From: Candidatus Eiseniibacteriota bacterium
Lineage (GTDB): Bacteria > Eisenbacteria > RBG-16-71-46
DNA: 57,881 nucleotides
Direction: 5' to 3'
Assembly (NCBI GenBank): GCA_025360715.1
Contig: JANYBS010000129.1
Location: forward strand, 1-57,881
Positions within the stretch are counted from its first letter, which is position 1, and every line of letters begins with the position of its first letter. Positions 8-32,808 of this stretch are shown one piece after another. Below the pieces are notes generated by a model, which was not told the origin of the DNA, made no database searches, and worked only from the letters and a program-made list of their open reading frames with translations. The position numbers and the translations under genes are program-made.

Positions 8-2488
8 TCAGTGCGTCAGGATGAGCCGGCGCGAGAGGCGCTCCCCACCCATCGACAGCTCGTACATGTAGACGCCGCTCTCCAGGCGAAGACCGCCGTC
101 GGTGCGGGCATCCCAGGCCACGGTGTGCACGCCGGCCACCATCGACGCATCCATCAGCTTGGCGACGCGCCGGCCCGTGACGTCGTAGACGCTCAGCTGG
201 ACACGGCCGGCCTTGCGCAGGTCGAACGAGAAGTTCGCGCGGTGCGTGACCGGGTTCGGCATGACCGGCAGCAGATTCGCGAACGCCGTGCCGCCCGTCT
301 TGTTGCCGGTGCCGTAGGGAACGCCACTGGGATCCGTGCAGTAGTCCCACACGTTGACCAAGCGCACGTTCGGCACCGCGACGGAATACTTGGAATCGTC
401 GAGGAACAGCGAGCGGTTGCCGAAGCCGGCGCACTCGAACGTGGCCGGAGCCTTCCAATACTTGAAGTTGACCGTCGTCGGCGTGGAATCCGGGAACGTG
501 ATCGCGCGCGTGAAGGTCGCGTCACCGGCCTGGCCGTCGGGGCTGACGCCGTCGTTCTTGAGTAATTGCCCGGCGACCGGATAGTCGAAGTGCAGAGGCA
601 ACTGGTCGCCCATGACCGCGACGGAATCCGCCGCCACAGGCAGCGGATCGAATCGGTCCATGTTGACCTTGAAGACGACCGTGATCGGCTTGTCCGTCAC
701 GGTGCAACGGTCGATGCCGCGCGCCGGCAGGATGATCGGGTTGACCGAGCTGAAGATCGCATCGTTCAGGTAGACGTTGCGGTCGCCCTGGCCGGTGCAC
801 TCGATCGTGCCGTTGTAATCCACCTTCCAGTTCACGTTCTTCGGCGAGCACGCGGGGAATGTGACACGCACGCTGTAGACCTTGTCTCCCGCGGTCTGGT
901 CCGCACCCGCGCCATTGTCGAGCATCGGCACGCCCGGCTGCGTGAACGTCAGCGGCTTCACGTTGCCGAGCAGCGTCATCACATCGCCGGGGACCGGCGT
1001 CTTGCGCGTCGCGTCGATCTTGAAAATGACGTCGATGGGCTTGTTCGTGAAGTTTGCTGGATCGTCATTGTTCCACGCCGCATTGATCGTGGCGGTGGCA
1101 CCGTTGTCACTCGTCAGGTGGTAACTGCGGTTCGAACCCAGCGGCTCATATTCCGAGCACTTGTGGCTGAACTTCCAATCGAAGTCGGCCTCGCCCTTGT
1201 TCGTCAACCGGCTCTTCACGAGGCTGAAGGGCACCGTGAGCGTGTAGATCGAGTCCACATTGGCGTCGTAAAGCAGGCCATTGTCGCAAAGATTGCCGAT
1301 CGTGAGCGGCAGCAGGCTGCCCTCGATCGCAAAGGAATCCGCCGGCGCGAACGCGCCGTTGCAGAGTCCGATGTGGAAATCACCGTTGAAGGTGACGTTC
1401 TGGTCGAAGAACTCGCCCTTGTTCGTGGTGCTGTTGTTCACGATCGTATTGCCGGCAAGGTCCTTGACGTTCAGTACGGTCACGCCATAGGCCGTGGCGC
1501 TCGCCGCGATGGGCGCGTTCAGCGTGAGATGCACCGTGCCCGTCGCCGCAGGGTCGCGCAGCGCGCTGATGATCGTGCGGCTCGCGAACGTGTAGTTGCC
1601 CACCGTCTGCGACGTGGTCAGGTCCACCGGCTCGCTGAAGGTGACGTCGACCTTGTTCGTGACGAGATTGAACTGGCGGTTCGCCAGAACGCTGAAGTTC
1701 ACGGCCTGCGCCTGCACGACGGTCGGTGGGATCAGATCCACCGAGTTCTGCACGACGTACGTTCCCATCGTCGTCATCTGGACGACGGCTGTCGTGTCGT
1801 AGGTGGTCGAGGCACCGCGCGACATCTGCACATTGCTGCTGAAGAGCGCGTCGAGCGGACCCTTCGTCGTGCCTTCCTGCGTGACCCAGAATTCCACGTG
1901 CATCGGCATGCCGACGGTCGCGCCCAGCACGCCAAGAGGAATCTTGAGCTCCTTGAAATTCACCGAGTCGACGATGCCCAGACCGTTGCTGCCGCCGCCC
2001 CAGCTCGGATTGATGTACTGCGAGCGATTATTCCAGACGTGCGTGCTCGTCACGTCCACCGAGTCCTTGTAAAGGATCTCGTAGTTGAACGCGTCGCAAG
2101 TGGTCGGGGTGACGTCGTAGATGACCCAGTCCGGCTTGAAGGGCACGTTGGCCCAGCCGATCTTGCGGCCGAAAGGATCCGTTGTGCCACCGGCGGCAGT
2201 GTTCATGTCGAAGGCCATGCCGAGATTCATGCTGCAGTAGCACGACTTCGAGAACTCGATGCCGACATACAGGTAGTTCGCGTCATTCGTCATATAGACG
2301 CGGCCCAGGTCCATCGGATAGATACCGACACCGCAATTGCTCTGCGTATCGGCGCGATCGTCGCGCAGCAGGTTCGACGGGTCGAAGTCATTGACACCAT
2401 CGACATTGATCGTCTGCGGCACGAAGGCGCGCGCAGGTGCGGCGACCACGAGCAGAAGCAGACAGAGAGCGGTAAGCAAGCGTCTCAT
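8..2488 (-). CDS. Secreted multi-domain protein with DOMON-like, SbsA Ig-like, repeated E-set modules and FlgD-like C-terminal domain
   Basis: An 826-residue exported protein. A signal peptide (residues 1-21, ending PARA) leads into a DOMON/CBM9-like region (about 22-245). This is followed by a bacterial Ig-like SbsA-type domain (about 250-360, starting DLIPPTVVQ) and three related modules (about 362-478, 480-595, 597-715). The modules share a VxFK(V/I)D-like first strand, a G-x-x-x-PL turn, a DNG...GD(K/A) stretch and a C-x-G-x-G(D/N)R ending, which resembles starch-binding-type E-set folds. The last ~90 residues (VYDVTGRR ... SGVYMYEL) are a FlgD-like/type IX sorting-like domain. It is transcribed divergently from the starch-type operon and shares its promoter region. 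Sugar binding by the repeats is inference; export and the sorting-like tail are visible in the sequence. Confidence 0.85.
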   Translation of the reverse strand: MRRLLTALCLLLLVVAAPARAFVPQTINVDGVNDFDPSNLLRDDRADTQSNCGVGIYPMDLGRVYMTNDANYLYVGIEFSKSCYCSMNLGMAFDMNTAAGGTTDPFGRKIGWANVPFKPDWVIYDVTPTTCDAFNYEILYKDSVDVTSTHVWNNRSQYINPSWGGGSNGLGIVDSVNFKELKIPLGVLGATVGMPMHVEFWVTQEGTTKGPLDALFSSNVQMSRGASTTYDTTAVVQMTTMGTYVVQNSVDLIPPTVVQAQAVNFSVLANRQFNLVTNKVDVTFSEPVDLTTSQTVGNYTFASRTIISALRDPAATGTVHLTLNAPIAASATAYGVTVLNVKDLAGNTIVNNSTTNKGEFFDQNVTFNGDFHIGLCNGAFAPADSFAIEGSLLPLTIGNLCDNGLLYDANVDSIYTLTVPFSLVKSRLTNKGEADFDWKFSHKCSEYEPLGSNRSYHLTSDNGATATINAAWNNDDPANFTNKPIDVIFKIDATRKTPVPGDVMTLLGNVKPLTFTQPGVPMLDNGAGADQTAGDKVYSVRVTFPACSPKNVNWKVDYNGTIECTGQGDRNVYLNDAIFSSVNPIILPARGIDRCTVTDKPITVVFKVNMDRFDPLPVAADSVAVMGDQLPLHFDYPVAGQLLKNDGVSPDGQAGDATFTRAITFPDSTPTTVNFKYWKAPATFECAGFGNRSLFLDDSKYSVAVPNVRLVNVWDYCTDPSGVPYGTGNKTGGTAFANLLPVMPNPVTHRANFSFDLRKAGRVQLSVYDVTGRRVAKLMDASMVAGVHTVAWDARTDGGLRLESGVYMYELSMGGERLSRRLILTH

Positions 2489-2750: not shown

Positions 2751-4088
2751 ATGCGTTGCGGTTCACTTCCGCGGCCGCGTGTATCTTTCCGCTCTCCCAC
2801 CGCCCAATTCGAGCCCGCCTTGCGCCGTCTACTGCTCTCCCTGCTGCTGCTGACCGCCCTGTCCCCGTCCCGGGCCTGGTGCGTGACCGCCCGTGACCTC
2901 TCGGGCCGCATCAAGATCGATGGATTCACGAACGACTACACCGACGACGAGAAGATCTTCGGGTTCAATACCGCCGCGGGGCTGCCGGAAGAGGCCAGCG
3001 ACGACTCGAAGTGGGACAACAACGACATCAACCAGATCCGCATCACCTGGGATGCCAAGAACCTGTATCTGGCCGGCGAAGGCATCACCTACGGCAACAA
3101 CATGGTGCTCTTCATCGACAGCGTCCCCACCCGCGGCCTCCAGTCGATGTCCAACCTGAACTCCTGGAAGCGCAACTTCACGTTCGACACCACATCCGTG
3201 AATGGTGACGGCGGTTTCGCTCCCGACCTGTTCGCCGCCACTTGGGACGGCAATCCCACCCCGCGCTTGATCGTGCAGCAGTCGGGAAGCCAGGTGGACG
3301 ACGAGATCTCCGGCGGGTTCTTCCGCTCCGCCGCCACCTTCAGCACGAACAACCGCGGCCGGGCGATGGAGCTGGCGATCCCCTGGCGCTCGGTATTCCT
3401 GGGCCAGGTCGGTCTGGGAACCCACGACACCTTGCTCACGGTGAACGGCGTCACCGACACCTTCCGCGTCTTCCCCAAGGGCACCAGACTCAAGATCTGC
3501 GGCGTCATCACGGGCGGCGGCGACAACTCGGGCGGCCCGGACTCCGCGCCCGACAACCTGCGCGGCCATACCAGCGACGGCAACGCTGCGGTGCTCCTGG
3601 ACAACTACGCGATCGTCGATCTGGACCGAAATGACGACACCGGGCTCGGCAACGGCGGCCCCGACGGCGTCGCCGACTGGGGCGTGGAGCCCAAGTCCCG
3701 AGTGTCGTTCCGCTACCAGCCTCCGATCACCCCGCTGCGCTTCGCCCTGCGAGCGATCGACTTCGACCGCCCGGCGTTCGCGCCGGACCGCGGCGAGAAG
3801 ATCCACTTCAGCGTCGAACTCGACAAGAAGCTCAACCCGAACAGCGCGCTCGACCGTGCCCGCACCGTGAACCTGAGCGCGAACGTGTTCGATATGCACG
3901 GCGGCTTCGTGCGCAACCTGTACCTGAACGTCACGCGGCCGGCCGTCTCGCCCAGCGACGCCACTCAGGACGTGTGGGATGGGCGCGACGCGCATGGCCG
4001 CATCGTGCCTGCGGGCATCTACATCATGCGCAGCGTCATCGAGCCGAGCTTGAGCCGCGAGACGCGCGCCTTCGTGGTGGTGCGATGA
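2751..4088 (+). CDS. Secreted DOMON/CBM9-like protein with FlgD-like C-terminus, first gene of starch-type operon
   Basis: About 445 residues from ATG 2751. An in-frame TTG at 2820 would give a 422-residue product starting directly at a textbook signal peptide (RRLLLSLLLLTALSPSRAW), so the true start is uncertain; neither has a strong ribosome binding site. The mature N-terminal half (GRIKIDGFTNDYTDDE onward) has the layout of the DOMON-like CBM9 modules found in secreted amylopullulanases: a short target-DG strand, a WDAKNLYLAGEG strand and an AMELAIPW strand. The C-terminal ~110 residues resemble a FlgD-type Ig domain (VWDGRDAHGR, then AGIYIMR). The stop overlaps the next ATG (ATGA, 4085-4088), so the operon is translationally coupled. 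A role in surface glucan binding is inferred from the fold and the neighbours. Confidence 0.75.
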   Translation: MRCGSLPRPRVSFRSPTAQFEPALRRLLLSLLLLTALSPSRAWCVTARDLSGRIKIDGFTNDYTDDEKIFGFNTAAGLPEEASDDSKWDNNDINQIRITWDAKNLYLAGEGITYGNNMVLFIDSVPTRGLQSMSNLNSWKRNFTFDTTSVNGDGGFAPDLFAATWDGNPTPRLIVQQSGSQVDDEISGGFFRSAATFSTNNRGRAMELAIPWRSVFLGQVGLGTHDTLLTVNGVTDTFRVFPKGTRLKICGVITGGGDNSGGPDSAPDNLRGHTSDGNAAVLLDNYAIVDLDRNDDTGLGNGGPDGVADWGVEPKSRVSFRYQPPITPLRFALRAIDFDRPAFAPDRGEKIHFSVELDKKLNPNSALDRARTVNLSANVFDMHGGFVRNLYLNVTRPAVSPSDATQDVWDGRDAHGRIVPAGIYIMRSVIEPSLSRETRAFVVVR

Positions 4089-5017
4089 AGCCCCTGCGCG
4101 CGCTCGGCGCTTTCGTGCTGCTGGTGGCCTTCGCCACCCCGGCGCATGCCTACTTCGAAGAGACGGTCGTCGGCGCGCGCGGACTCGCGCTGGGCAACTC
4201 CTCGATCGCCTTGGTCTCCGACGTCACTGCCTACTATTGGAATCCTGCCGCGCTCGGTTCGATGCGCGGCGCCGAGGCCAGCGCCGACTTCGCCAAGCCC
4301 TATGGCCTGGCGAACGTCAATGGCAGCGCCATCGCGGTCGCTGCGAAGCGCCTTGGCATCGGCTGGGGCTTGGCCTGGCACCACCTGGGCCTACAGGGCG
4401 CCTACAGTGAGGACCAGTTCACGCTCGCAGCCGGCCGGCACCTGTTCGACGTCCGCGGCGCGGGCTCCGTGGCGGGCGGCATCGCCGTGCGCAGCGACCG
4501 AATCGCGTTCGAGTCCTTCCAGGATCCCATCGGCGGGGGCACGGTCGACTACGGCTCTCAGTCCAAGCCCTCCCTCGACGTCGGGCTGCGCTGGCAGTCG
4601 CCGTGGAGTATCGACGTCGCCTATGTGGGGCGCGACCTGCTCAACCCGCACTTCGAGTTCATCGCCGGTTCCGGCGGACAGACGATCGCCGCGCGGCAGT
4701 CCCTCGCGGCCGCGTTCCATTGGAATCGCGAGTCCACCGTGAGCGTGGGTTGGTCGCAGATCGACGATTCGCACAGCGAGGCCAGCGCGGGCCTCGAGAT
4801 CCTCTTCTACGATGTGTTCGCGATCCGTTCGGGATTCTCGAACCTCTCGCGCGTCTACCAGTCGCTCGGCGACCCGAACCAACTCGAGTTCACCGGCGGG
4901 TTCGGCGTCCAGCACAAGGGCTACTTCGTCGACGCGGCCGCCACCACGAATCATGATCTTGGCGCGAGCTACCACGTGACGCTTCGAGTGCCGTTCGGCG
5001 CTGGGGAGAGACACTGA
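4085..5017 (+). CDS. PorV/PorQ-like outer-membrane beta-barrel protein
   Basis: 310 residues with a clear signal peptide (1-20, ending PAHA). The start at 4085 is preferred because of the ATGA overlap with the preceding gene and because the signal peptide follows directly. The mature protein opens with the GARGLALGNSSIAL / WNPAAL pattern seen in PorV/PorQ and UPF0164 barrels, in which a conserved Gly-Ala-Arg strand and an 'N-P-A-x-L' turn precede alternating amphipathic strands. It ends in an aromatic barrel-type strand (VTLRVPF). In Bacteroidota such barrels act as outer-membrane anchors or shuttles for type IX secretion cargo, which would fit the sorting-like tails of nearby proteins. That link is inference. 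It overlaps the next gene by TGATG at 5015-5019. Confidence 0.7.
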   Translation: MKPLRALGAFVLLVAFATPAHAYFEETVVGARGLALGNSSIALVSDVTAYYWNPAALGSMRGAEASADFAKPYGLANVNGSAIAVAAKRLGIGWGLAWHHLGLQGAYSEDQFTLAAGRHLFDVRGAGSVAGGIAVRSDRIAFESFQDPIGGGTVDYGSQSKPSLDVGLRWQSPWSIDVAYVGRDLLNPHFEFIAGSGGQTIAARQSLAAAFHWNRESTVSVGWSQIDDSHSEASAGLEILFYDVFAIRSGFSNLSRVYQSLGDPNQLEFTGGFGVQHKGYFVDAAATTNHDLGASYHVTLRVPFGAGERH

Positions 5018-6582
5018 TGCGCTTCTTGCGGCCTGTCGCGGTAGCGCTTCTCGCCTCGTTCCTACTTGCCACCGCCGCAACCGCGGTCACCAAGGTCGAG
5101 GGCGACTATCAATTGATGATGGAGATGCGCAAGACGGGAAATGCCTATCCGTGGGCGTGGAACTCCAACGACTACGACACGTTCAACAACGCGGGACTGC
5201 GCATCTTCTCGCAGCCGCGCGCAGGCGTGGAAGCGTTCCTCAAGGTCGAATCCGACTGGCATCCGAACGACAACAACGGCGCCCGCAATGTCTTCCAGTA
5301 CCGCGAAGCCCACGTGCGCTTCCGTAAGGAGATGGGTAAGCGCGGCGTCGACAGCTACCTGTTCTCGCGCCAGGACCGTTTCTATGTCAACACGTACCTG
5401 ATCCCGTTCGTGTACGGACGAGGTGACGCGCAGGGCCTGCGGCTCGACACATGGGGCTTCGGCAAGACCGACGCCACGTTCATCGTGGCGGACCAGAGCA
5501 GCCAATACAATCCCACCAACTTCGCAAGCTTGGCGCCGCACCAGCCGCTCGATTCGCTCGCGTCGCAGCACATCTTGCGTACCGACGATATGTACATCGT
5601 CCGGTTACGCCGCGAGTTCGGTAGCGCCAAGCAGTTCCGAACCGGGCTCACGTTCAACCGCTTCGAGGGCTGGACGGGCAGTGACAGTGTGAGCGCTCCC
5701 GCCGCGTACCACACGGTCCTAGGCTTCGACACCCGCTATCGCTTGGCCGGCGCCGATGTCGCCTTCGAGTACGGCGAAAGCCGCTCGAGCCAACCCACGG
5801 TCACGCCCACAGCGGGTCCCGAGTTCACCAGCTTCAACAAGGGTCTCGGCTTCCGCATCCCCGATCAGGCCGTGGCGCAGGCGGAGATCCGCAGCTTCAA
5901 GCTCGGCGCACCGCGCGCGGGCTACTTGTTCATCACGCCGGGCTGGTGGAGTCGCGGCGCGAAGTACCAGAACAACCTGGGCGGCCCGAACAGCGACGAG
6001 ACGGGCTTCAATCTGCAGAGCTACTACCTGCTGCCGGAGCGCGCGATCACCTATTCGAACCAGTTGCTCTGGTACGGCAACAAGGTCTTCACGCACAAGG
6101 ACACGCGGCAGATCTACAACGAACTCTATGTGGAGTTCGTGAACGGCTTCACCGGCAAGACGTCCTATCGGCGGACCGACAACTACACGTATTCGAATGG
6201 CATCCAGCGCCGCGAGATCCACCTGGACTGGTTCAATGAGCTCCAGGTGGAGAGCAAGCTCGCGTGGCTGCGCATCCAGAGCGGCCTGCGCAACATCGGC
6301 AACCCGTCCGACAAGAAGCTGCTCTTCGTGATCGAGCACTCGATCAACCTGACGCAGAAGACCAAGATCTACGATCGCTTCGCGTTCGGCAACGATGCGA
6401 GCATCCAGCGCAAGGGCCTCTTCACGCAGCTGCAATATCGCCCGACCGGGAACATGGAGATGTTCCTGCAATACGGGCCCGACTACATCGGTGGCGGCTC
6501 GAATCCCGTCGAGGAAGGCAATCTCAACGGTAACGCCGACCAAGTCGACATCATCAAGTTCATCCTGAAAGGAAACTTCTGA
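5017..6582 (+). CDS. Outer-membrane porin-like beta-barrel protein
   Basis: 521 residues with a signal peptide (1-23, ending ATA). The rest alternates short hydrophobic/aromatic strands with polar turns and ends in the aromatic strand IIKFILKGNF, typical of an outer-membrane barrel assembly signal. No known domain was recognised, and nothing resembles a TonB plug. It is coupled by TGATG to the upstream PorV-like gene and by TGATG to the downstream CBM48-barrel gene, so the three barrels are made together. I infer a passive glucan or maltodextrin channel; a structural role is equally possible. Confidence 0.65.
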   Translation: MRFLRPVAVALLASFLLATAATAVTKVEGDYQLMMEMRKTGNAYPWAWNSNDYDTFNNAGLRIFSQPRAGVEAFLKVESDWHPNDNNGARNVFQYREAHVRFRKEMGKRGVDSYLFSRQDRFYVNTYLIPFVYGRGDAQGLRLDTWGFGKTDATFIVADQSSQYNPTNFASLAPHQPLDSLASQHILRTDDMYIVRLRREFGSAKQFRTGLTFNRFEGWTGSDSVSAPAAYHTVLGFDTRYRLAGADVAFEYGESRSSQPTVTPTAGPEFTSFNKGLGFRIPDQAVAQAEIRSFKLGAPRAGYLFITPGWWSRGAKYQNNLGGPNSDETGFNLQSYYLLPERAITYSNQLLWYGNKVFTHKDTRQIYNELYVEFVNGFTGKTSYRRTDNYTYSNGIQRREIHLDWFNELQVESKLAWLRIQSGLRNIGNPSDKKLLFVIEHSINLTQKTKIYDRFAFGNDASIQRKGLFTQLQYRPTGNMEMFLQYGPDYIGGGSNPVEEGNLNGNADQVDIIKFILKGNF

Positions 6583-8900
6583 TGCCTTCGCGCCCCCTTC
6601 TGTCCGCGAGGCGCGTGCTCGCGTCGCTGCCTGCCGCGTGTGCCCTGCTCCTCACCATGCTCGCGGGCTCACCGGCCTGGGCCACGCCGCAGAAGGTCGC
6701 CGGTGGCATCCAGTTCACCTACAAGGATCCCAACGCGGTGTCGGTCGCGTGGGCGGGCCTTTTCAATAATTGGTCGCCAACCGCGAACTCGATGAAGCGC
6801 GGGTCCGATGGCGTGTGGAGCGTGGTCGTTGCGCTGCCGCCTGGCGAGCAGCAGTACAAGTTCGTGGTGGACACGCAATGGTTCGCGGACCCCGAGAATG
6901 GCACCACGGCCGGCGAGTTCGGCAACAGCGTCGTGACGGTCGCCAACGACGGCTCACTCGTGGCCAAGCAGGCGACGTCGAACACTCCTTACAGCCCCAA
7001 GATCTTCATGGGCGGCCGGGTGATCGGCGAGTACCAGGAGATCTACAATCCATCGAATACGCGCTACGAACTGTCGCGCCCCACGATGGACCTGGACCTG
7101 GGCCTCGATGTGCGGTTCTCCGATGTCCTTGCCGGACACTTCCTGATGAACATCAACCCCGAGCACGAGGATGTGCAGGACTACCGCAGCCGCCTGAACT
7201 TCAAGCGCGGCTCACTCACGCTATCGCAACCCGACCTCAAGGTGTTCGCGTTCGACAGCGAGGCGCTCCCCGAGTGGAATGACATGCTCCATCTGGTCGG
7301 TGACGTGGGGGTCTTCCACCACCCCTACGGCTACCAGCGCCAGGGTTTCCAGGTAAGCACGCCCAAGCTGGGCTTCGACACGCAGATCCTGTACACCGAC
7401 AACTTCAATAACAACGGCACGGAGTTCCCCGATTTCATCATCAATCGTGGCACGGGCCGCCAGTTCGTGTTCGACTCGGACCCGGTCGGCAACTCGCTCA
7501 ACCTGCTGCAGACGGTGCGTACGATCAGCGGCTTTGCGCTGGCGCCCGACCAGATCACGCGCATCGCGTCCTTGGACGCGGGCGACAACGACAACAGCTT
7601 CGGCTTCGGCGACGGCAACAAGAACACGTTCGCCGGCCGAGTCCGGCGCGCGCTACCGCACGGCGTCACGCTGGGGCTGCTCGGGCGTTCCGATCGCGGC
7701 TACAACCTGGGCCGCGTCGTCTTCGCGCAGCCCACGGGTGACAGCACGGTGAGCGTACTGAGCGGGCAGTACGAGACCGAATGGTATGGCGGCGGTGGCG
7801 ACGCCACGTGGGCACCCGTCTCCGGCCTCTCGCTGCGCGGCGAGTATCTACAGGGCGCCGAGCGATTCACGCTCGTGAATGGCGCCACGCAGCAGGAGTA
7901 CAAGCTTGGCTCGATCTCGGCGACGGGTGTGGGCAACACGTCCAGCCAGCCGACGACCGCGGCCGATGGCCAGCACCGCACGCTCGACCGCAGCAGCCGG
8001 TTCGGCGCCGGCGCGGCATGGACGTTCGCGAAAGGGGACATCACCCTGCGCGCGGGGTTCGAACGCGAGAACCACGCCTACCCAGCCTGGACACAGTCGC
8101 CGGTCGCGGTCGCCGGGCTGGGCCCAGAGGACCATCCGCATTTCGAGAACATCTCCTATGCACGCAACTCCTACCTTCGCGCCAGCGAGGACATCGAGAA
8201 CTCCCGCACCGAGTACCGTCTGGGCTGGGACCGGAACTGGCGCTATTACGTGAACCGCGAACTCAAGACCACGGTCGATCTCGAGGTCACGCACTTCGAA
8301 TACGATGCGCGTACGTCGTGGGATCACCAACTGTGGCTGCCCACGGGCAACTTCTGGCTGGAGCGCGGGCAGCACCAGGTGGGCATCGATTGCCTCACCG
8401 TGCTTGGCGTGACTGACGTCGTGCGCCTCAAGCCGACGCTCGAGGTGCCGTTCTGGATGCGCCGCAATGCGCTGCTTCGCTATAAGGGCACTTTCACCGG
8501 CGTCGATCTGGGCAAGAATCCGCGTTACGCGGAATCCATCTTCCAGCTCGGCTTCGACTGGAACAAGGTCATCCGCATCGGCTCGGATACGCGCTGGGTC
8601 AAGTACGACGCGCCCTCGCTGGGCTTGCAACGCGGGTACGCGAGCACGTTCACGTCGGCCACGTACCACTTCGCTCCGGACATCTCCGTGGCGCTGGGTG
8701 TGGGTGTGGACCCCGAAGTGCTCGACCCCAACACAAACGAGTACTCATCGATCGGCCGCGACCTGTATCTGAATCAGCGCAATGCGAATGGCTACATCGC
8801 GGAGAACAACTACCTGAGCCTGGCTCCGCAGATCGCCGCAGCGGAGCACGCGCTGAAAGCGGAGAAGCGTATCCAGCTTCGGGCTGTCGTCCACTTCTGA
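6582..8900 (+). CDS. CBM48 (AMPK-type glycogen-binding) domain fused to outer-membrane beta-barrel
   Basis: 772 residues. A signal peptide (about 1-34, ending SPAWA) is followed by one glycogen-binding E-set (about 35-125) with the signature VAWAGLFNNWSP, a DG-W-S strand, the PPGEQQYKFVVD strand and a terminal GNSVVTV. From about residue 145 to the end the sequence is a long barrel of 16 or more probable strands with a C-terminal aromatic residue (LRAVVHF). An outer-membrane barrel carrying its own glycogen/starch-binding domain is unusual. The arrangement suggests a sugar-capturing channel, functionally analogous to SusC/SusD although not homologous to them. It is TGATG-coupled to the gene before it and lies 20 bases ahead of a CBM48 lipoprotein. 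Confidence 0.75.
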   Translation: MPSRPLLSARRVLASLPAACALLLTMLAGSPAWATPQKVAGGIQFTYKDPNAVSVAWAGLFNNWSPTANSMKRGSDGVWSVVVALPPGEQQYKFVVDTQWFADPENGTTAGEFGNSVVTVANDGSLVAKQATSNTPYSPKIFMGGRVIGEYQEIYNPSNTRYELSRPTMDLDLGLDVRFSDVLAGHFLMNINPEHEDVQDYRSRLNFKRGSLTLSQPDLKVFAFDSEALPEWNDMLHLVGDVGVFHHPYGYQRQGFQVSTPKLGFDTQILYTDNFNNNGTEFPDFIINRGTGRQFVFDSDPVGNSLNLLQTVRTISGFALAPDQITRIASLDAGDNDNSFGFGDGNKNTFAGRVRRALPHGVTLGLLGRSDRGYNLGRVVFAQPTGDSTVSVLSGQYETEWYGGGGDATWAPVSGLSLRGEYLQGAERFTLVNGATQQEYKLGSISATGVGNTSSQPTTAADGQHRTLDRSSRFGAGAAWTFAKGDITLRAGFERENHAYPAWTQSPVAVAGLGPEDHPHFENISYARNSYLRASEDIENSRTEYRLGWDRNWRYYVNRELKTTVDLEVTHFEYDARTSWDHQLWLPTGNFWLERGQHQVGIDCLTVLGVTDVVRLKPTLEVPFWMRRNALLRYKGTFTGVDLGKNPRYAESIFQLGFDWNKVIRIGSDTRWVKYDAPSLGLQRGYASTFTSATYHFAPDISVALGVGVDPEVLDPNTNEYSSIGRDLYLNQRNANGYIAENNYLSLAPQIAAAEHALKAEKRIQLRAVVHF

Positions 8901-8920
8901 CCCGGCCGCGGGGAGGTCTT

Positions 8921-9340
8921 ATGCGAATCGATTCCAAGCGGGTCCGTGCCCTCATGGCGGTCACGGGTGTCGCTCTGGCGCTGTCGCTCACGAACTGCAG
9001 CAACCTGAACTTCATCAAGCGCCGGCTGCCGCCGCCCACGCAGACACCACAGGGCGTGATCTTCCGCTTCAATGCGCCCTCTGCGCGCGTCGTGCAGCTC
9101 GCGGGCAATTGGCCGGCCAACAACTGGCTCGCCGGCCAAGCGCAGACCGGCACGTTCCTCGTGGGCGAGATGAAGAACGACAAGGGCGATGGCATCTGGA
9201 CTCGCACCGAGCCCCTGCCGCCTGGCCGGTACCAATACAAGTTCGTCGTGGACCGGGTGAACTGGAAGCAGGACCTGAACAACCCGAACCGCACGGACGA
9301 CGGATTCGGCGGATTCAACTCCCTGATGGACGTGCGCTGA
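8921..9340 (+). CDS. Small CBM48 lipoprotein
   Basis: 139 residues starting after a strong ribosome binding site (GGGGAGG, 5 bases upstream). The leader ends in LTNC, so Cys26 is a likely lipidated residue. The mature part is a single AMPK/isoamylase-N-type glycogen-binding domain, with VIFRFNAP, VQLAGNW-x-x-N-W, PPGRYQYKFVVDR, W-K-Q-D and the DDGFGGFNS ending shared with the downstream multi-module lipoprotein and amylase. It has no room for a catalytic domain, so it is probably a pure binding protein anchored in the outer membrane. The stop overlaps the next start (TGATG at 9338-9342). Confidence 0.8.
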   Translation: MRIDSKRVRALMAVTGVALALSLTNCSNLNFIKRRLPPPTQTPQGVIFRFNAPSARVVQLAGNWPANNWLAGQAQTGTFLVGEMKNDKGDGIWTRTEPLPPGRYQYKFVVDRVNWKQDLNNPNRTDDGFGGFNSLMDVR

Positions 9341-10179
9341 TGCGACTTCGTGGTTCGCACCTTTCGCGCCTGGCTGTGGGCGTCGCGCTCCTGGGCCTCC
9401 TCATGGCCGGCTGCGGCAAGAACAGCCCGACGACGGTGCTGACCCCGACCGGGTTTCGCCCGGGGCCTGCAGTCCCCACGGGTTCACTCTTCGGATTCGT
9501 CGTTTACGACCCGACGAACACGCCCGACATCAACGTGGCGCCGTTTCCCTCCACGATCATCCAGCTCCTCAAGAACGGCGTGCCGGTCAAGGCCGACACA
9601 TTGTCGATCGACAGCACGCGCTTTCATTTCGAAGGCGTGGCACCGGGCACCTACTCCGTGAGCGTGACCGCGAGTTCGTTCCTGATCAACTTCAAGAGCA
9701 ACCTCAAGGTGCGCGAGACGCGCGTGGACGCCGGCAACATCACGGTCGCGCTCGACAACTCATTCCTCAACACCATCAACTGCTACCTCACCGGCGACAT
9801 CCCCGGCTTCGGCTTGGACCAGGTCGGCACGTATGAGAGTGGCCTCGACCAGAACGCGCTCGGCATCTGGACGTACCCGAACGTCGTCTACACGGGTGGC
9901 GCGCCGATCCCGGCGGGTACCTATCGATTCAAGCTCATCACCGACATCTCGTCGACACTCACGAACCTTGTGGGCTGGGGCGGTTCTCAGGCCGACACGC
10001 TCACGGTGCCGTTCTCCGGCCGTCGCGTCGTACGCGCCAGCGGCCCGGCGACCGACCTGATCGCCCGCTTCCCCACCACCGCTGTCTATCAGATCACGCT
10101 CGATGAGCGGCGCCAGTCGCTGAGCATCGTCCCCGCTCCCACTGCCGGCGCCCTTCGCCTCATGAGGATCCACCGATGA
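9340..10179 (+). CDS. Hypothetical lipoprotein with carboxypeptidase-regulatory-like segment
   Basis: 279 residues. The start at 9340 is chosen for the TGATG overlap and the lipoprotein leader that follows, ending LMAGC (Cys25). The first half has the pattern of a carboxypeptidase regulatory-like / beta-sandwich domain (GSLFGFVVYDP, then FEGVAPGTYSVSV). The second half contains an E-set-like 'AGTYRFKLITD' strand, but the CBM48 tail motif DDGFGG is absent. It sits between two glycogen-binding lipoproteins in the same coupled operon, so it probably belongs to the same surface complex. Its specific activity is not identifiable. The stop overlaps the next ATG (10176-10179). Confidence 0.6.
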   Translation: MRLRGSHLSRLAVGVALLGLLMAGCGKNSPTTVLTPTGFRPGPAVPTGSLFGFVVYDPTNTPDINVAPFPSTIIQLLKNGVPVKADTLSIDSTRFHFEGVAPGTYSVSVTASSFLINFKSNLKVRETRVDAGNITVALDNSFLNTINCYLTGDIPGFGLDQVGTYESGLDQNALGIWTYPNVVYTGGAPIPAGTYRFKLITDISSTLTNLVGWGGSQADTLTVPFSGRRVVRASGPATDLIARFPTTAVYQITLDERRQSLSIVPAPTAGALRLMRIHR

Positions 10180-11633
10180 AGATCCGCCATCTGCTCCTGG
10201 TCACGATGTTCCTCGCCACTGCCGGCTGTGCGGGCGGATGGCGCGATGGCGCCGGCCCCGGCGCCATCGGCATGGCCCAGACGGCCACCGCGGCGACTGC
10301 GCCTGCCAAGGCCGTGAATACCGGCGCTTCGCACGCGATGGCCGACGGCGCCGTATTCATCTTCAAGGGCACCGCGAATTCGGTGAACGTGGCCGGCGAG
10401 TTCAACGCATGGAGCACCAGCGCTGATGCGCTGACGAAGCAGGCGGACGGGACTTGGTCGCTCGAGAAGAAACTCGCGGCCGGCCGCTACATGTACAAGT
10501 TCGTCGTCAATGGCAGCGACTGGAAGCAGGACACGGACGCTCCTGATGCGGCCGACGACGGCTTCGGCGGCAAGAACAGCGTCATGGTCGTGGGTGCGAG
10601 TGCGGCCGCGGGCGCAGCGGCCCCCGCGGCCGCCAAGCCTGCTGCTGCAGCGGCTGCGCCCGTGGCCACGGGCGACGGTGCGACCTTCAAGTTCTCGGGC
10701 GCCGGCAACACCGTGAACGTGGCCGGTGAGTTCAACAACTGGAGCACCAGCGCCGACGCGCTCACCAAGCAGGCCGACGGCTCGTGGGCGATCACCAAGA
10801 AGCTGGCGCCGGGCCGCTACATGTACAAGTTCGTGGTCGATGGCTCGAACTGGAAGGAAGACCCCAACGCCAAGGAAACCGCCGATGACGGTTTCGGCGG
10901 CAAGAATGCGGTCATGGTGGTCGGTGGCGCTGCCGGCGCGGTGGCGGCGGCTCCTGCGGCGGCCAAGCCGACGGGAGCGGCAGCGGCGCCCGTCGCCAGC
11001 GGTGACGGTGCCACATTCAAATTCTCGGGCGCCGGCAACACCGTGAACCTGGCCGGTGACTTCAACAACTGGAGCACGAGCGCCGACGCGCTCACCAAGC
11101 AGGCCGATGGCAGCTGGTCGATCACCAAGAAGCTCGCGCCGGGCCGCTACATGTACAAGTTCGTGGTCGACGGCAGCAACTGGAAGGAAGACCCGAACGC
11201 CAAGGAGACCGTCGACGACGGCTTCGGCGGCAAGAACGCCGTCATGGTCGTCGGCGGCGCGGCCAGTGCAGCGGCGGCGGCTCCGGCCGCGGCCAAGCCG
11301 GCGGCAGCGGCCGCCCCTGCAGCAGCCAAGCCGCTCGCTTCGGGCGTCAAGCCCAAGGCGCCGCAGGCGACGGCCGCGGGCGTGGTCTTCACCTACGCCG
11401 GCGCCGCCAAATCCACCGTGGCGCTGTGCGGCGACTTCAACAACTGGGCGCCCAATGCCGACGCGCTCACGCAATCGGCCGATGGCACCTGGACGCTCAC
11501 GAAGAAGCTGCCCGCCGGCGCACACTCGTACAAGTTCCTGGTCGACGGCAGCAACTGGAAGCCGGACGACGGCAATCCTAACAGCAGCGACGATGGTTTC
11601 GGCGGAAAGAACTCCGTCATCACCGTGAAGTAG
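10176..11633 (+). CDS. Lipoprotein with four tandem CBM48/AMPK-type glycogen-binding modules
   Basis: 485 residues. The leader MKIRHLLLV...LATAGC gives Cys18 as lipidation site. Four glycogen-binding E-sets (about 55-138, 166-249, 276-359, 398-485) are separated by flexible linkers made almost only of Ala, Pro, Lys and Gly. Each has the same skeleton: VNVAGEFNxWS, LTKQADGxW, a PGRYMYKFVVDGS(N)W strand, and DDGFGGKN(S/A)V. Modules 2 and 3 are nearly identical in protein and DNA. There is no catalytic domain. The design is a beads-on-a-string surface binder, probably holding starch or glycogen beside the CBM48 barrel and the amylase. A strong intrinsic terminator follows the stop, before the amylase gene. 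Ligand specificity is inferred from the family. Confidence 0.85.
   Translation: MKIRHLLLVTMFLATAGCAGGWRDGAGPGAIGMAQTATAATAPAKAVNTGASHAMADGAVFIFKGTANSVNVAGEFNAWSTSADALTKQADGTWSLEKKLAAGRYMYKFVVNGSDWKQDTDAPDAADDGFGGKNSVMVVGASAAAGAAAPAAAKPAAAAAAPVATGDGATFKFSGAGNTVNVAGEFNNWSTSADALTKQADGSWAITKKLAPGRYMYKFVVDGSNWKEDPNAKETADDGFGGKNAVMVVGGAAGAVAAAPAAAKPTGAAAAPVASGDGATFKFSGAGNTVNLAGDFNNWSTSADALTKQADGSWSITKKLAPGRYMYKFVVDGSNWKEDPNAKETVDDGFGGKNAVMVVGGAASAAAAAPAAAKPAAAAAPAAAKPLASGVKPKAPQATAAGVVFTYAGAAKSTVALCGDFNNWAPNADALTQSADGTWTLTKKLPAGAHSYKFLVDGSNWKPDDGNPNSSDDGFGGKNSVITVK
10673..11260 (+). repeat. Two near-identical ~330-bp direct repeats inside the four-module lipoprotein gene
   Basis: The DNA encoding modules 2 and 3 repeats with a 330-base offset; for example TTCTCGGGCGCCGGCAACA occurs at 10692 and again at 11022. 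Modules 1 and 4 are more diverged. The pattern indicates recent tandem duplication or gene conversion and makes the module number prone to change. Confidence 0.85.
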
Positions 11634-11643
11634 TCACGATCTC

Positions 11644-11684
11644 GAGCCGGGGCGCCCAGCGTCCCGGCTCTCTCTTTTTCTCTT
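11644..11684 (+). terminator. Intrinsic terminator between the four-module lipoprotein gene and the amylase gene
   Basis: GAGCCGGG (11644-11651) pairs with CCCGGCTC (11663-11670) across an 11-base loop and is followed at once by TCTCTTTTTCTCTT. It lies inside what is otherwise one co-oriented operon, 10 bases before the amylase ribosome binding site. It should make the binding proteins more abundant than the enzyme, or the amylase has its own promoter. Confidence 0.8.
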
Positions 11685-11694
11685 CGGAGGACCG

Positions 11695-14364
11695 ATGCGA
11701 TCCCTGGGACTCTTCATGCGCCCGATGCGCTTCGCCGCGATGCTCGTGGCCTTGGCTCTGCTGGCGGTCTCGCCCGCGTGGGCCACCAAGATCACCTTCC
11801 GCTACCAGCCTGTGATCGGCGGCGTCTCGTCCGTCGCGGTGGCCGGCAGCTTCAATGGCTGGAACGCGAGCGACCATCCGCTGACCGACGCCGATAAGGA
11901 TGGCGTCTACGAGGCGACGTTCGACATGCCCGCGGGGCGGATCGAATACAAGTTCGTCGTCAATGGGGATCAGTGGATGGCCGACGAGAATGCGGCCGAG
12001 ACCTCGTCGGACGGCTTCGGGGGCCAGAACGCGGTGCTGACGGTCGCCGACAAGCCGCTCGTCGTCGGCCTTGGCGCGACGAACCCCAAGAAGGCCTCGG
12101 GCAGCGCAGCCGGCGGCGCGAAGATGGGTCTGCGCCGAGTGCCCTTCAAATTCCGCCCCACGGCCAAAGCCGACGCGGTCTCGCTGGCCGGCACCATGAA
12201 CGACTGGACCTTGGGCAAGAATCCGCTCACCGGCCCCGATGCGAACGGCGACTGGTCGACGACGATGCTGCTCGCGCCGGGCTCTTACCAGTACAAGTTC
12301 GTCGTGGGCGCCAGTGGCTGGACGCAGGACAAGGCCGGCCAGGACGCCGAGGCCTCGGACGGATTCGGCGGCATGAACTCCATCCGCAACGTCGATGAGC
12401 GCTACCCAGCCATCGCGGTCAAGAAGGGCGACGGCGATATCTTCGCCGACGGCATCCAGCACACGCAGGCATCTAACGAGGTCAACAACATGGGCGCGCG
12501 CACGCAGTTCACTGCGCGCGCACACATCGACGACGTGCAGGGCGTGGACCTGGTCACGTGGGTCGCGGGCAAGGAACTCGTCACACCGATGCGCACCGCG
12601 GACAGCGACAAGGTCTTCGACTACTTCCGCATCGAGATCGCAACGCCCGCCAACGGCACGCTCTACGCCTTCCGGTATCGCGACGGCGCCAAGACGCACT
12701 GGCTGGGCGCCAAGGGCCTGGCCGATGCGTCCACGGACAAGTTCACGTTCGACAGCGCGAAGTTCCCTGCATTCGTGACGCCCGACTGGGTCAAGAATGG
12801 CGTCATCTACCAGATCTTCCCGGACCGCTTCCGCAACGGGGACCCCAAGAACGATCAGGACTTTCACGAGTGGTATTACCAAGGCAAGACCGCGCTGCCC
12901 GCGAGCGGGGTGATCGTCCCCGACTACCAGGAGTACTACCACCTGGTGAAGGATTGGACCGACTACGGTGCGCTCACGCAGGCGCCGCACACGCCGGACC
13001 ACCGCGACTGGATGGCGTTCTACGGCGGCGACCTTGCCGGCGTGAGCCAGAGCTTGGACTACATCAAGAGCCTGGGCGTCACGATCATCTACTTCAACCC
13101 GATCTTCGAGGCCAAGTCGACGCACAAGTATGACGCCGCCGACTACCGCAAGATCGATCCGCACTTTGGCACGAATGAAGAGTTCATCGCGCTCGTAAAG
13201 GAAGCCCATGCGAAGGGAATCCGGATCATCCTCGACATCGTCTACAACCACAGCGGCAACGCGAATTGGGCTTTCAAGGATGCCGTCGACAACGGCCCCA
13301 AGAGCCCGTACTGGAACTGGTACGAGTTCAAACAGTGGCCGCTGCCTGCGGGCTGGCCGTCGGTCGATCATATGTGGAAGCCCGGCGACTTCTATACGTG
13401 CTGGTGGAACTTCGGCGACCTACCGGACCTGAACTTCGACCTCTCGCGCGACGACAAGGCCGAAGTGCCGATCAAGGACGTGAAAGACGCTCAACCCAAC
13501 ATCTCGCTGGTCAAGTACCTGCTCGACTCCACGGAGTACTGGCTCAAGACCGCCGATGTCGATGGCGTGCGCCTGGACGTGCCCAACGAAGTGCCGTTCT
13601 GGTTCTGGAAGCTCTTCAACCAGCGCGTGAAGAGCGTGAAGCCCGATGCGTACATCGTCGGCGAGCTCTGGGGCAATGCGTCGGACTACGTGCGTCCCGG
13701 CGTGTACGACGCCGTCATGAACTACGCGTTCTTCCGCGACCCGGTCACGCGCTTCCTCGGCATGGGCCAGGGCTCGGCGGCCGAATTCGACGCGGCACTC
13801 GCAGCGGGCCGGCTCACCTACCCCGAGCAGGCGGTCGAGGCGCAGATGAACCTGATCGACAGCCACGACACCGTGCGGTTCCTCACTCAGGTTGGTGGCG
13901 ACACGAACCGCCTCAAGCTCGCGGCACTCTTCCAGATGAGCTATGTGGGCGCGCCGAGCATCTACTATGGCGATGAGATCGCCATGGAAGGCCAGCGCGA
14001 TCCGGACTGCCGCCGGCCGTTCGTGTGGTCGTGGAAGGACGAGCCCAAGCGCGTCGACATGCACACCTGGTACACGAAGCTCGGCGCCCTGCGCGGCGCG
14101 CATCCGGCGCTGCGCACGGGCGAGTTCCGCACCGTGCTCGCGAACGGCATGGCTTACGCGTATACGCGCAAGCTTGGCGCCGACGAGTTCCTTGTCGTGG
14201 TCAATGCGGGCCGGCAGAGCGCTGAGTTGGCCGTCGACCTGGCGCCCTGGGGTGGCAAGCTCAAGGCCACCGACGCGCTCGAAGGCGGTGCGGCCGACTG
14301 GGCTGGCACGGCGAAGCTGACGCTGCCAGCGGAGAGCGGACGAATCTACCAGATCACGCGCTGA
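11695..14364 (+). CDS. Secreted GH13 alpha-amylase-family enzyme with two N-terminal CBM48 modules
   Basis: 889 residues, ribosome binding site CGGAGG 5 bases upstream. A signal peptide (1-30, ending SPAWA) precedes glycogen-binding E-set 1 (about 31-115, FNGWNAS ... YKFVVNG ... DGFGGQNA) and E-set 2 (about 145-235, MNDWTLG ... YQYKFVVG ... DGFGGMNS). A third beta-sandwich of the CBM34/neopullulanase-N type (about 255-360) comes before the TIM-barrel. GH13 regions are visible: I DIVYNHSG (D514-H519), II DGVRLDVP (nucleophile D628), III IVGELWG (acid/base E657), IV IDSHDT (D725), plus region V LPDLNFD. The VIYQIFPDRF entry strand and the region II form resemble neopullulanase/cyclomaltodextrinase-type enzymes, so hydrolysis of alpha-1,4 glucans and perhaps pullulan or cyclodextrins is expected. 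With no visible lipobox it is periplasmic or secreted. It is the only obvious glycoside hydrolase in the window. Confidence 0.92.
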   Translation: MRSLGLFMRPMRFAAMLVALALLAVSPAWATKITFRYQPVIGGVSSVAVAGSFNGWNASDHPLTDADKDGVYEATFDMPAGRIEYKFVVNGDQWMADENAAETSSDGFGGQNAVLTVADKPLVVGLGATNPKKASGSAAGGAKMGLRRVPFKFRPTAKADAVSLAGTMNDWTLGKNPLTGPDANGDWSTTMLLAPGSYQYKFVVGASGWTQDKAGQDAEASDGFGGMNSIRNVDERYPAIAVKKGDGDIFADGIQHTQASNEVNNMGARTQFTARAHIDDVQGVDLVTWVAGKELVTPMRTADSDKVFDYFRIEIATPANGTLYAFRYRDGAKTHWLGAKGLADASTDKFTFDSAKFPAFVTPDWVKNGVIYQIFPDRFRNGDPKNDQDFHEWYYQGKTALPASGVIVPDYQEYYHLVKDWTDYGALTQAPHTPDHRDWMAFYGGDLAGVSQSLDYIKSLGVTIIYFNPIFEAKSTHKYDAADYRKIDPHFGTNEEFIALVKEAHAKGIRIILDIVYNHSGNANWAFKDAVDNGPKSPYWNWYEFKQWPLPAGWPSVDHMWKPGDFYTCWWNFGDLPDLNFDLSRDDKAEVPIKDVKDAQPNISLVKYLLDSTEYWLKTADVDGVRLDVPNEVPFWFWKLFNQRVKSVKPDAYIVGELWGNASDYVRPGVYDAVMNYAFFRDPVTRFLGMGQGSAAEFDAALAAGRLTYPEQAVEAQMNLIDSHDTVRFLTQVGGDTNRLKLAALFQMSYVGAPSIYYGDEIAMEGQRDPDCRRPFVWSWKDEPKRVDMHTWYTKLGALRGAHPALRTGEFRTVLANGMAYAYTRKLGADEFLVVVNAGRQSAELAVDLAPWGGKLKATDALEGGAADWAGTAKLTLPAESGRIYQITR

Positions 14365-14444: not shown

Positions 14445-15545
14445 CTACGCCGTGACCGGCACGCCTGCGAGCGAACGCTCGGTGGTCGCATCGAACAAGT
14501 GCAGCTTCTCGAACGGCGCGTGAAGTTCGGCCTTGGCGCCCACCTCGGGTGCCACCTGACCCGGCACGCGCGACGTGAGTGCACCGAAGGCGCTACTCCA
14601 GTGTACGAGCGTCTCGTTGCCCAGCGGCTCGCGCACGTCCACGGTGGCCGGCAGGCTCACGCCGCCCTGCGGTTCCAGGTGCAGGTCCTCGGGGCGGATG
14701 CCGACTGTGACCTGCTTGCCCTTGAGCTCGGAGACGGCAGCCTTTTGAGCCTCGCCCAGCGGCAGTCGCATGCCCTGCGCCTCGAGCGTCGCGCCGTCGG
14801 CCGCGACCGTGGCAGTGAAGAAATTGATCGGCGGGCTGCCGATGAATCCGGCGACGAATTCGTTCGCCGGCGAAGTGTAGAGCGTGAAGGGATCCGCGCA
14901 CTGCTGCAGGATGCCCTTGCGCATGACGGCGATACGGTCGCCCAGCGTCATGGCTTCGACCTGATCGTGCGTGACGTAGATCATCGTTGCACCCACACGC
15001 TGATGCAAGCGCTTGATCTCGGCGCGCATCTGCACGCGCAGCTTGGCGTCGAGGTTCGAGAGTGGCTCATCGAAGAGGAAGACCTGAGGCTTGCGCACCA
15101 TCGCGCGGCCCAGTGCCACGCGCTGGCGTTCGCCGCCCGAGAGCTCGCGCGGCCGGCGCTGCAGGTAGCCGGTCAGGCCGAGCACCTCGGCTGTCTCGTT
15201 CACCTTCTGCTGCACCTCGGCCTCGCTCGCCTTACGGCGGCGCAGGCCGAAAGCCATGTTGTCGAATACGCTCATGTGCGGATACAGCGCGTAGTTCTGG
15301 AACACCATCGCCACGTCGCGATCCTTGGGCGCCACGTCGTTCACGACGCGGTCGCCGATCTTGACTTGGCCTTCCGAGATCTCCTCGAGGCCGGCGACCA
15401 TGCGCAGCACCGTGGACTTGCCGCAGCCCGACGGACCGACGAGCACCAGGAACTCGCCATCGCGGATCTTGAGGTTCACGCCGTCGACGGCCTTCTGGCC
15501 ACGACCGTAGAGCTTACCGAGCTTGATCAGTTCGACACTGGGCAT
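14445..15545 (-). CDS. MalK/UgpC-type ABC transporter ATP-binding protein
   Basis: 366 residues, full length for the sugar-import MalK/UgpC/MsmK class. Visible are the Walker A motif GPSGCGKST (37-45), the Q-loop in MVFQNYALYPHM, the signature LSGGERQRV, Walker B VFLFDEP with the D-loop SNLDAKLR, and the switch His in YVTHDQVEAM. The C-terminal ~130 residues form the TOBE/MOP-type regulatory domain (VGIRPEDLHLE). These ATPases energise inner-membrane uptake of maltodextrins, glycerol-3-phosphate or other sugars. No permease or binding-protein genes are adjacent, so it would have to serve a transporter encoded elsewhere. Its location opposite the starch operon makes maltodextrin import the most economical guess. 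The upstream gap (15546-15687) holds two copies of a short hairpin, CCCGCGTCAGCGGG. Confidence 0.9.
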   Translation of the reverse strand: MPSVELIKLGKLYGRGQKAVDGVNLKIRDGEFLVLVGPSGCGKSTVLRMVAGLEEISEGQVKIGDRVVNDVAPKDRDVAMVFQNYALYPHMSVFDNMAFGLRRRKASEAEVQQKVNETAEVLGLTGYLQRRPRELSGGERQRVALGRAMVRKPQVFLFDEPLSNLDAKLRVQMRAEIKRLHQRVGATMIYVTHDQVEAMTLGDRIAVMRKGILQQCADPFTLYTSPANEFVAGFIGSPPINFFTATVAADGATLEAQGMRLPLGEAQKAAVSELKGKQVTVGIRPEDLHLEPQGGVSLPATVDVREPLGNETLVHWSSAFGALTSRVPGQVAPEVGAKAELHAPFEKLHLFDATTERSLAGVPVTA

Positions 15546-15687: not shown

Positions 15688-16875
15688 TCAGCGGGCCTGC
15701 GGCGGCCCCAACAAGAACTGGAGGATGTCGCCGATGCGAGCGGCCCACGCGCGCTCGTTGTGCGCCGCGCCCTCGACCTCGACGTAGTGCAAGTCCTCGT
15801 CCTGACGCCAGCCGCGCGCCAGCAACGCATCGCGCAGCACGCGCGACTGCTCCATACGCGGCGAGTGGCCGCGGTCGTCGGGCGTGTACTCGGCGGTGCC
15901 GATGTCGAACCAGATGCGTGCGTTGTGGCCCTTGCCCGCCTTCACTCGCGCGATCTCGGCACCATCGCCCCACCACACGCTGGTGGAGACGCTGCCGATC
16001 AGGCCGAACTTGTCGGCGTGATCGAGCGCCATGTCGAGCGCCGCCAAGCCGCCGAGCGACGAGCCGATGATGCCCGTGTGTTCGGCATCAGGCCGCGTGC
16101 GGTAGTTCGAATCGACGAACGGCTTGAGCTCCTCGATCAGGAACCGTTGGTGCGCCGCGGACTTACCCCCGCCATTCTTGGCATCGGCGACGGCAGTGTA
16201 TTCCGCCATGCGCTGAGGGCTGTTCGCGACCGCCACCAGGATGCATGGCGCGAGCCGGCCGTTGCGGATGAGCGAGTCGGCCACTTCATCGGCGCGCCAC
16301 TCGGCGCCGGGAATGAAACTTGTCGCGCCATCGAACACATTCTGGCCATCAAGCAGGTAGATCACCGGATAGCGCCTCGACTTCTGCTGCTCGTAGCCCG
16401 GCGGCAGCCACACCAGGATGTCGCGCGCGCTCACATACTTCGACGCGAACGCGGCATGAGTGCGGATGTCGCCCGTGAGCGTGTGCACGCGCGCGGCCGC
16501 GGGAGCGCCGGCATCCGTGCGCCACGAAGCCACCGTGACGCGCACGGTATCGGTCGTCGCAATAACACTCACGCGGCGATTGCCGAGCTCGCCGCCCTGA
16601 GCGTCCTTCTCGACGCTGTCCCAGCTGCCGCGCGTGAGCTTGAACTCTGCGCTCGCACCTGCCGGCAACGCCACGTCACCCCACCAGAGCCCATCGGCGC
16701 GACGCGTGAGCGCCGGACCCTTGCCACTCCACGCGCCCAGCTCTGCGCGGTCACCCGACAGATACAGCGTCGCATCCGTCGGCGTCGAGGCCGGCGCAGT
16801 GACGATGAACGTGACCGCAGACGCGGGCGTCGCAAGGAGCAGCGCCGCGAGCGCGGCGCGCCAGAGCGCGCTCAC
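15688..16875 (-). CDS. Secreted esterase (Fes/EsD type alpha/beta-hydrolase) with N-terminal CBM20-like starch-binding domain
   Basis: 395 residues. The GTG at 16875 is chosen because it overlaps the upstream stop (GTGA) and begins a clean signal peptide (SALWRAALAALLLATPASA). Residues about 22-115 form a CBM20-like sandwich (LYLSGDRAELGAWSG, then FKLTRGSWDSVEKDAQG). A putative esterase-family alpha/beta-hydrolase follows (about 130-395), with RDILVWLPPGYE, YPVIYLLDGQNVFD, the nucleophile elbow GSSLGG (Ser273) and a late histidine in AAHNE (His372). Such enzymes (feruloyl/acetyl esterases, enterochelin-esterase-like) cleave ester decorations. The starch-type module suggests action on an acylated glucan. 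Substrate is not determinable from the sequence. Confidence 0.8.
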   Translation of the reverse strand: MSALWRAALAALLLATPASAVTFIVTAPASTPTDATLYLSGDRAELGAWSGKGPALTRRADGLWWGDVALPAGASAEFKLTRGSWDSVEKDAQGGELGNRRVSVIATTDTVRVTVASWRTDAGAPAAARVHTLTGDIRTHAAFASKYVSARDILVWLPPGYEQQKSRRYPVIYLLDGQNVFDGATSFIPGAEWRADEVADSLIRNGRLAPCILVAVANSPQRMAEYTAVADAKNGGGKSAAHQRFLIEELKPFVDSNYRTRPDAEHTGIIGSSLGGLAALDMALDHADKFGLIGSVSTSVWWGDGAEIARVKAGKGHNARIWFDIGTAEYTPDDRGHSPRMEQSRVLRDALLARGWRQDEDLHYVEVEGAAHNERAWAARIGDILQFLLGPPQAR

Positions 16876-21003: not shown

Positions 21004-21035
21004 GGCGAGTCGTGACTCCTGAAAAAACTGCGGTA

Positions 21036-32803: not shown

Positions 32804-32808
32804 CGGCG

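Follow-up and report, generated by a model that had tools for sequence, protein, structure and literature searches.

The DNA analysed here (hereafter the window) is a stretch of 57,881 nucleotides from a Candidatus Eiseniibacteriota bacterium (GenBank assembly GCA_025360715.1, contig JANYBS010000129.1, positions 1 to 57,881), near whose left end lies an operon that combines outer-membrane beta-barrels, lipoproteins, and a GH13 enzyme with modules of the CBM48/AMPK type. The original prediction for this operon proposed an equivalent of the Sus system of Bacteroidota, built from unrelated parts, in which alpha-glucan is held by lipoproteins, cut by the GH13 enzyme at the cell surface, and passed through a barrel bearing its own CBM48 module. 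The operon was compared across a phylum set of 47 Eisenbacteria genomes, and a second scan covered 84,980 species genomes. The genes of the cluster, with the basis for their description, are as follows:

8-2488, minus strand: g0, surface protein of 826 amino acids with Big_5 and starch-binding-like E-set regions and a C-terminal FlgD-Ig/Por_Secre_tail sorting domain (Pfam, homologues)
2751-4088, plus strand: A, secreted protein with a DOMON/CBM9-like N-terminal part (the DOMON label is a sequence impression) and a FlgD-Ig-like C-terminal domain
4085-5017, plus strand: B, PorV/PorQ-family-like outer-membrane barrel (NF033709 PorV_fam in orthologues)
5017-6582, plus strand: C, predicted large outer-membrane beta-barrel of no known family (AlphaFold2 model, Foldseek, null results in Pfam and the PDB)
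6582-8900, plus strand: D, N-terminal CBM48 (about residues 40-120) followed by a predicted large beta-barrel of no known family (AMPK1_CBM, AlphaFold2 model)
8921-9340, plus strand: E, lipoprotein with one CBM48 module (AMPK1_CBM, 26.9 bits, over the cut-off)
9337-10179, plus strand: F, lipoprotein with a CarboxypepD_reg-like domain and a C-terminal beta domain (weak PF13620)
10176-11633, plus strand: G, lipoprotein bearing four CBM48 modules, with linkers rich in Ala/Pro/Lys (four AMPK1_CBM stretches, E 9.7e-56)
11695-14364, plus strand: H, GH13 enzyme (cyclomaltodextrinase/neopullulanase-like) with two CBM48 modules, a CBM34-like Ig domain, and a signal peptide (PF00128, PF02903)
14445-15545, minus strand: I, MalK/UgpC-type ATP-binding cassette (ABC) transporter ATPase (NCBIfam NF008653, over the cut-off)
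about 15688-16890 (start approximate), minus strand: J, secreted esterase with an N-terminal CBM20 (PF00756 and PF00686)

An open reading frame check returned the eight plus-strand genes A-H at 2751-14364, exactly as originally delimited. Neighbouring genes overlap by 4 bp (A/B, E/F, and F/G) or 1 bp (B/C and C/D), or are separated by gaps of only 20 bp (D/E) and 61 bp (G/H), and the operon is thus translationally coupled. The inventory of three barrels, three lipoproteins, one GH13 enzyme, and eight CBM48 modules was correct, as was the spacing, and the cluster extends beyond A-H through the addition of g0, the MalK-type ATPase I, and the CBM20 esterase J.

All eight modules score over the curated AMPK1_CBM cut-off in Pfam, one each in D and E, four in G, and two in H. 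When aligned to AMPK beta-1 (1z0m), 8/8 retain W100, K126, W133, and N150, which we take to be the residues of AMPK beta-1 that contact glycogen, and carry Phe at the position of AMPK L146. From these conserved contact residues we infer that the CBM48 modules bind alpha-glucan. The whole 4.29-Mb assembly contains eight AMPK1_CBM matches, all inside the A-H operon, and this clustering of every such module of the genome in one operon is not a chance effect. Lipobox-like cysteines are found at the N-termini of E, F, and G, that of E being present in 13/13 orthologues, and the closest solved relatives of G are structures of the AMPK beta-1 carbohydrate-binding module (1z0m/1z0n). The position of F is occupied in other families by bigger proteins, with up to 8 CarboxypepD_reg repeats and CBM48/X25-like modules. 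Large F-position proteins of this kind, with 2-8 repeats, were noted at L046:4821-6866, L048:2019-5348, and L049:1667-6118, and are possibly long stalks reaching for glucan.

A search with D recovered the barrel, either complete or cut by a contig end, in 18 of the 47 phylum genomes, representing 8 families, with five further genomes giving only weak matches to the carbohydrate-binding module. Related loci keep the order A-B-C-D-E-(F)-(G)-H. The scan of species genomes with the C barrel yielded 23 loci, some of which lie in genomes also recovered with D, labelled nearly all as Candidatus Eisenbacteria and in a few cases as Gemmatimonadetes, Effluviviaceae, or "bacterium". D directly follows C in 23/23 of these loci, and a gene of CBM48 lipoprotein type comes after D wherever the contig goes on, except in L071. 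Two other phylum-level groups also possess the C-D pair, in about 17/20 genomes of the group to which the Effluviviaceae record belongs and in 2/5 of the L073 group. C-D is the most conserved core of the operon, kept where A, F, G, and the GH13 enzyme are lost or replaced. Conservation of gene order, named beforehand as a test of the original prediction, therefore held in Eisenbacteria and beyond.

Presence of the D barrel is closely tied to that of a maltose-type importer. A MalE homologue is encoded by 17/18 genomes with the D barrel versus 0/29 without it (Fisher p 6.6e-12, with no correction for common ancestry), the sole exception (G019) being 82% complete, and this co-variation includes differences in presence and absence within families. 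In 12 genomes, MalE and the D barrel share a contig at a distance of about 4-12 kb, and in G013-G015, G017, and G018 MalE lies directly inside the operon. In loci of type I, the MalE/F/G-type importer is found a few kb upstream or downstream, while in those of type II, which are divergent, MalE/F/G-type genes directly follow the barrels and a GH57 enzyme with Glucodextran_C takes the place of GH13. Association of the same barrels with two unrelated families of alpha-glucan enzyme (GH13 and GH57) provides independent support for the substrate. In the source genome, a MalE-MalF-MalG run extends up to the edge of contig C46 (9.2 kb), and analogy with relatives suggests that this contig abuts the left end of the window. 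The predicted products include an importer of MalE-MalF-MalG-MalK type, with MalE/F/G on C46 and the MalK-type ATPase I at 14445-15545; I scores 400 bits against NF008233 (MalK), under its cut-off of 568.

The two barrels of the conserved core could not be placed in any known family. Among 16 members of each examined with Pfam, neither C nor D matched a barrel family, a TonB plug (PF07715), a TonB receptor, or a family of the type IX secretion system (T9SS), and C had no sequence match in the PDB. The AlphaFold2 model of C has about 24 strands (predicted local distance difference test score, pLDDT, 79), and Foldseek returned only generic large barrels (ushers, TonB-dependent transporters, porins, AlgE) with template modelling (TM) scores up to about 0.49. 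D is modelled as a large barrel (pLDDT 75), for which barrels of TonB-dependent transporters rank on top with TM scores of only about 0.3. These scores are too low for a family to be assigned, and the structure search leaves C and D with a resemblance to generic large barrels. Comparing the profiles of D and C gave only a short local match (probability 74%), which does not speak for a common family, and comparison of the B profile with that of C gave no match.

D carries AMPK1_CBM in 16/16 orthologues, in every case directly after the signal peptide and ahead of the barrel. Both termini of outer-membrane barrels are normally periplasmic, and in TonB-dependent transporters, whose barrels have 22 strands, the plug sits at the N-terminal position. 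Given this usual topology, the N-terminal CBM48 of D would face the periplasm or fill the lumen rather than lie at the cell surface, and it is doubtful that D holds glucan outside the cell. Passage of glucan specifically through D is likewise doubtful, as conservation of C is just as strong and the pore function may belong to C or to both barrels.

On its domain content (PF00128, E 3.7e-64; PF02903; two AMPK1_CBM matches) and its PDB relatives (1jf5/1bvz/1sma), H is assigned to the cyclomaltodextrinase/neopullulanase/maltogenic amylase group of GH13, with a CBM34-like N-terminal domain. It has a cleavable-looking signal peptide, no convincing lipobox in either the window protein or its homologues, and no sorting domain. 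H is accordingly more likely to be a soluble, periplasmic protein than a surface enzyme, and the predicted cutting of glucan at the surface by GH13 becomes doubtful. A homologue of J adjoins H in L039, L041, L048, L056, and L057.

Some products of the cluster are probably displayed through type IX secretion, as judged from the PorV-like barrel B, the sorting domains on A and g0, and the presence of SprA in the genome. NF033709 (PorV_fam) is matched by 15/15 B orthologues, with a best E value of 7e-22; B of the window itself reaches 41.6 bits against a cut-off of 90. A FlgD_ig match was found in 10/13 orthologues of A, whose profile matches FlgD and the fn3-like region of C5a peptidase in the PDB. 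The earlier description of A as a DOMON-like protein stands only as a sequence impression of its N-terminal part, which Pfam did not confirm. Homologues of g0, which is divergent from the operon start or close by in many related loci, carry FlgD_ig (8/8), Por_Secre_tail (7/8), and, in one case, CBM_20. SprA, a marker of the T9SS translocon, occurs in 39/47 phylum genomes, including the source genome. A protein of 1627 amino acids adjoining MalE (L088:3110-7993, on contig C46) bears a FlgD-Ig-type sorting domain and could be a surface enzyme of the system. This protein, which is large, of T9SS type, and encoded upstream of MalE, was considered as a GH57 surface amylase: PF03065 is matched below threshold by one homologue, and 1k1w weakly by the profile. 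That identification is tentative, since comparing its profile with the GH57 enzymes of type II loci failed in the catalytic part.

Several other features of the window were noted. Further cargo of T9SS type is encoded at 45665-50599 (plus strand; an M43 peptidase-PKD-LamG protein with Por_Secre_tail) and 52027-54777 (plus strand; a large protein with a FlgD-Ig C-terminus). A perfect 9-bp inverted repeat (CTTTGTTCG-tggtc-CGAACAAAG) lies at 2658-2680, in the divergent g0/A intergenic (promoter) region; it looks like an operator but has no counterpart between the orthologous genes of relatives, and was set aside as a candidate. Ahead of A in locus L055 stands a gene that, by sequence impression, encodes a LacI-like regulator. 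The genes at 19603-25096 (minus strand) for dihydrolipoyl dehydrogenase, 2-oxoacid dehydrogenase acyltransferase, and 2-oxoglutarate dehydrogenase E1 form an ordinary 2-oxoglutarate dehydrogenase complex operon, while consecutive genes at 30975-36167 (DUF1295, DUF1365 with cyclopropane synthase, and amine oxidase) resemble a cyclopropane/lipid-modification cluster.

Taken together, the cluster probably encodes a system that captures and takes up alpha-glucans of starch/glycogen type and includes a new outer-membrane module. An alpha-glucan function of the operon is very likely, and a role in uptake, rather than in storage or export, is likely as well. In the mechanism we propose, the CBM48 lipoproteins E and G, together with the T9SS-displayed A and g0, would gather alpha-glucan at the cell envelope, with A and g0 probably anchored or shuttled via the PorV-like barrel B. 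C and D, which are always co-encoded, would form the outer-membrane passage for malto-oligosaccharides, and D may use its N-terminal CBM48 to bind sugar in the role of a gate, a plug, or a receiver on the periplasmic side. The products would be trimmed by H, most likely in the periplasm, and brought into the cell by the MalE/F/G-type importer with the MalK-type ATPase. We lean slightly towards C and/or D being the conducting pore; that the CBM48 of D is a lumenal gate is a tentative suggestion. Equally speculative is the full proposal that C and D constitute a plug-less, TonB-independent glycan translocator, in which a CBM48 takes the place of the plug, gating the barrel and passing malto-oligosaccharides to periplasmic MalE. 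These gradings of the parts are a matter of judgement, and the membrane topology, the sugar-conducting barrel, the energy source, and the cleavage site of the system are all inferred.

Several observations weigh against this interpretation. The pLDDT values are moderate (75-79) and the Foldseek TM scores low, too low to fix pore size or barrel family; the ABC importer of the source genome lies on another contig, its adjacency being deduced from relatives; and the co-occurrence statistics are weakened by broken contigs and by the shared ancestry of the genomes. Plug domains of TonB-dependent transporters are common in the phylum genomes, and of the 14 in the source genome none is in C or D, so that a transporter unlinked to the operon could do the transport. 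C and D might then be scaffold or anchor barrels that, with B, display starch-degrading T9SS proteins, with maltose entering through general porins or such an unlinked transporter. The PorV-like nature of B, the sorting domains on A, g0, and the large neighbouring protein, and the combination of SprA with many TonB-dependent transporters would all fit this arrangement, which we nevertheless regard as unlikely, since D has a CBM48 of its own in 16/16 members, neither C nor D matches a T9SS family, and the C-D core outlasts the loss or replacement of A, F, G, and GH13. The original prediction had itself named as a danger that the barrels might be T9SS components unrelated to sugars; the checks did not bear this out, except that B is indeed PorV-like.

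A diverged SusC/SusD or LamB system missed by sequence would account for the Sus-like layout of glucan-binding lipoproteins, neopullulanase, and barrel, for a single weak match of D to SusF_SusE (E 0.023), and for the first rank of TonB-dependent barrels in the Foldseek search with D. However, SusD (PF07980) and LamB (PF02264) were each found in 0/47 phylum genomes while the Bacteroides and E. coli controls were positive, and the missing plug and receptor matches of C and D, with TM scores of about 0.3 for the latter, make this explanation very improbable. AMPK-type modules recognise glycogen, and among solved structures the AMPK beta-1 module is closest to G; both points would suit a system that handles a glycogen-like glucan made by the cell itself (storage, capsule, or exopolysaccharide) instead of external starch. 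All parts carry export signals, though, and instead of synthases their companion genes encode hydrolases and an importer (MalE/F/G/K); we consider a role of this kind highly unlikely.

Starch fragments are known to cross the outer membrane through porins of LamB type or through TonB-dependent transporters (SusCD, MalA). If C and D do form a translocator, this would be a new kind of system and a third route of alpha-glucan import in Gram-negatives, beside SusCD/TonB-dependent transporters and LamB, present in several candidate phyla. Two barrels without a family are tied to alpha-glucan binding, hydrolysis, and ABC import in three or more phylum-level groups that lack cultured models. The operon offers a specific, testable candidate for a new glycan channel in the outer membrane, and a first way into the question of how Eisenbacteria and Effluviviacota feed on polysaccharides.

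Searches of the open-access PubMed Central literature (Eisenbacteria polysaccharide use, CAZymes, and T9SS; CBM48 with PorV, porin, or SusD) turned up no description of such a system, in agreement with the earlier statement that no named system with this composition is known. In its manner of working the cluster resembles Sus coupled to a Mal importer, but it lacks the defining outer-membrane component of either. Similarly to Sus (SusRABCDEFG), a single operon encodes envelope glucan-binding lipoproteins, an outer-membrane barrel stage, and a neopullulanase-type GH13 (cf. SusA). It differs in having no SusC-type plugged TonB-dependent transporter, in the absence of SusD from the 47 genomes, in the use of CBM48 modules in place of SusE/F/SusD, and in the tie of uptake to an ABC importer. 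The idea of a Sus equivalent from unrelated parts is retained in the form of an operon for capturing and taking up alpha-glucan that has neither SusD nor LamB; surface cleavage and D-specific passage are its doubtful elements. With the enterobacterial Mal system (LamB, MalEFGK2, MalS) the operon has in common a MalE/F/G and MalK-type importer that tracks it and an amylolytic enzyme of periplasmic type; here, however, LamB is lacking in 47/47 genomes, C and D are unrelated, larger barrels (D with a CBM48), and glucan-binding lipoproteins, predicted to be at the surface, are added. In Caulobacter, MalA is a TonB-dependent maltodextrin receptor and the inner-membrane step is not performed by an ABC transporter (PMC11658791). 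Both that system and, in the reading proposed here, the Eisenbacteria operon represent outer-membrane maltodextrin uptake outside Bacteroidota and outside LamB, but C and D have no plug and the operon is accompanied by an ABC importer. Finally, T9SS display (PorV, SprA, and cargo with C-terminal sorting domains) is paralleled by the PorV-like B, the FlgD-Ig/Por_Secre_tail C-termini of A and g0, and SprA, whereas C and D match no T9SS families and the cargo bears glucan-related domains.

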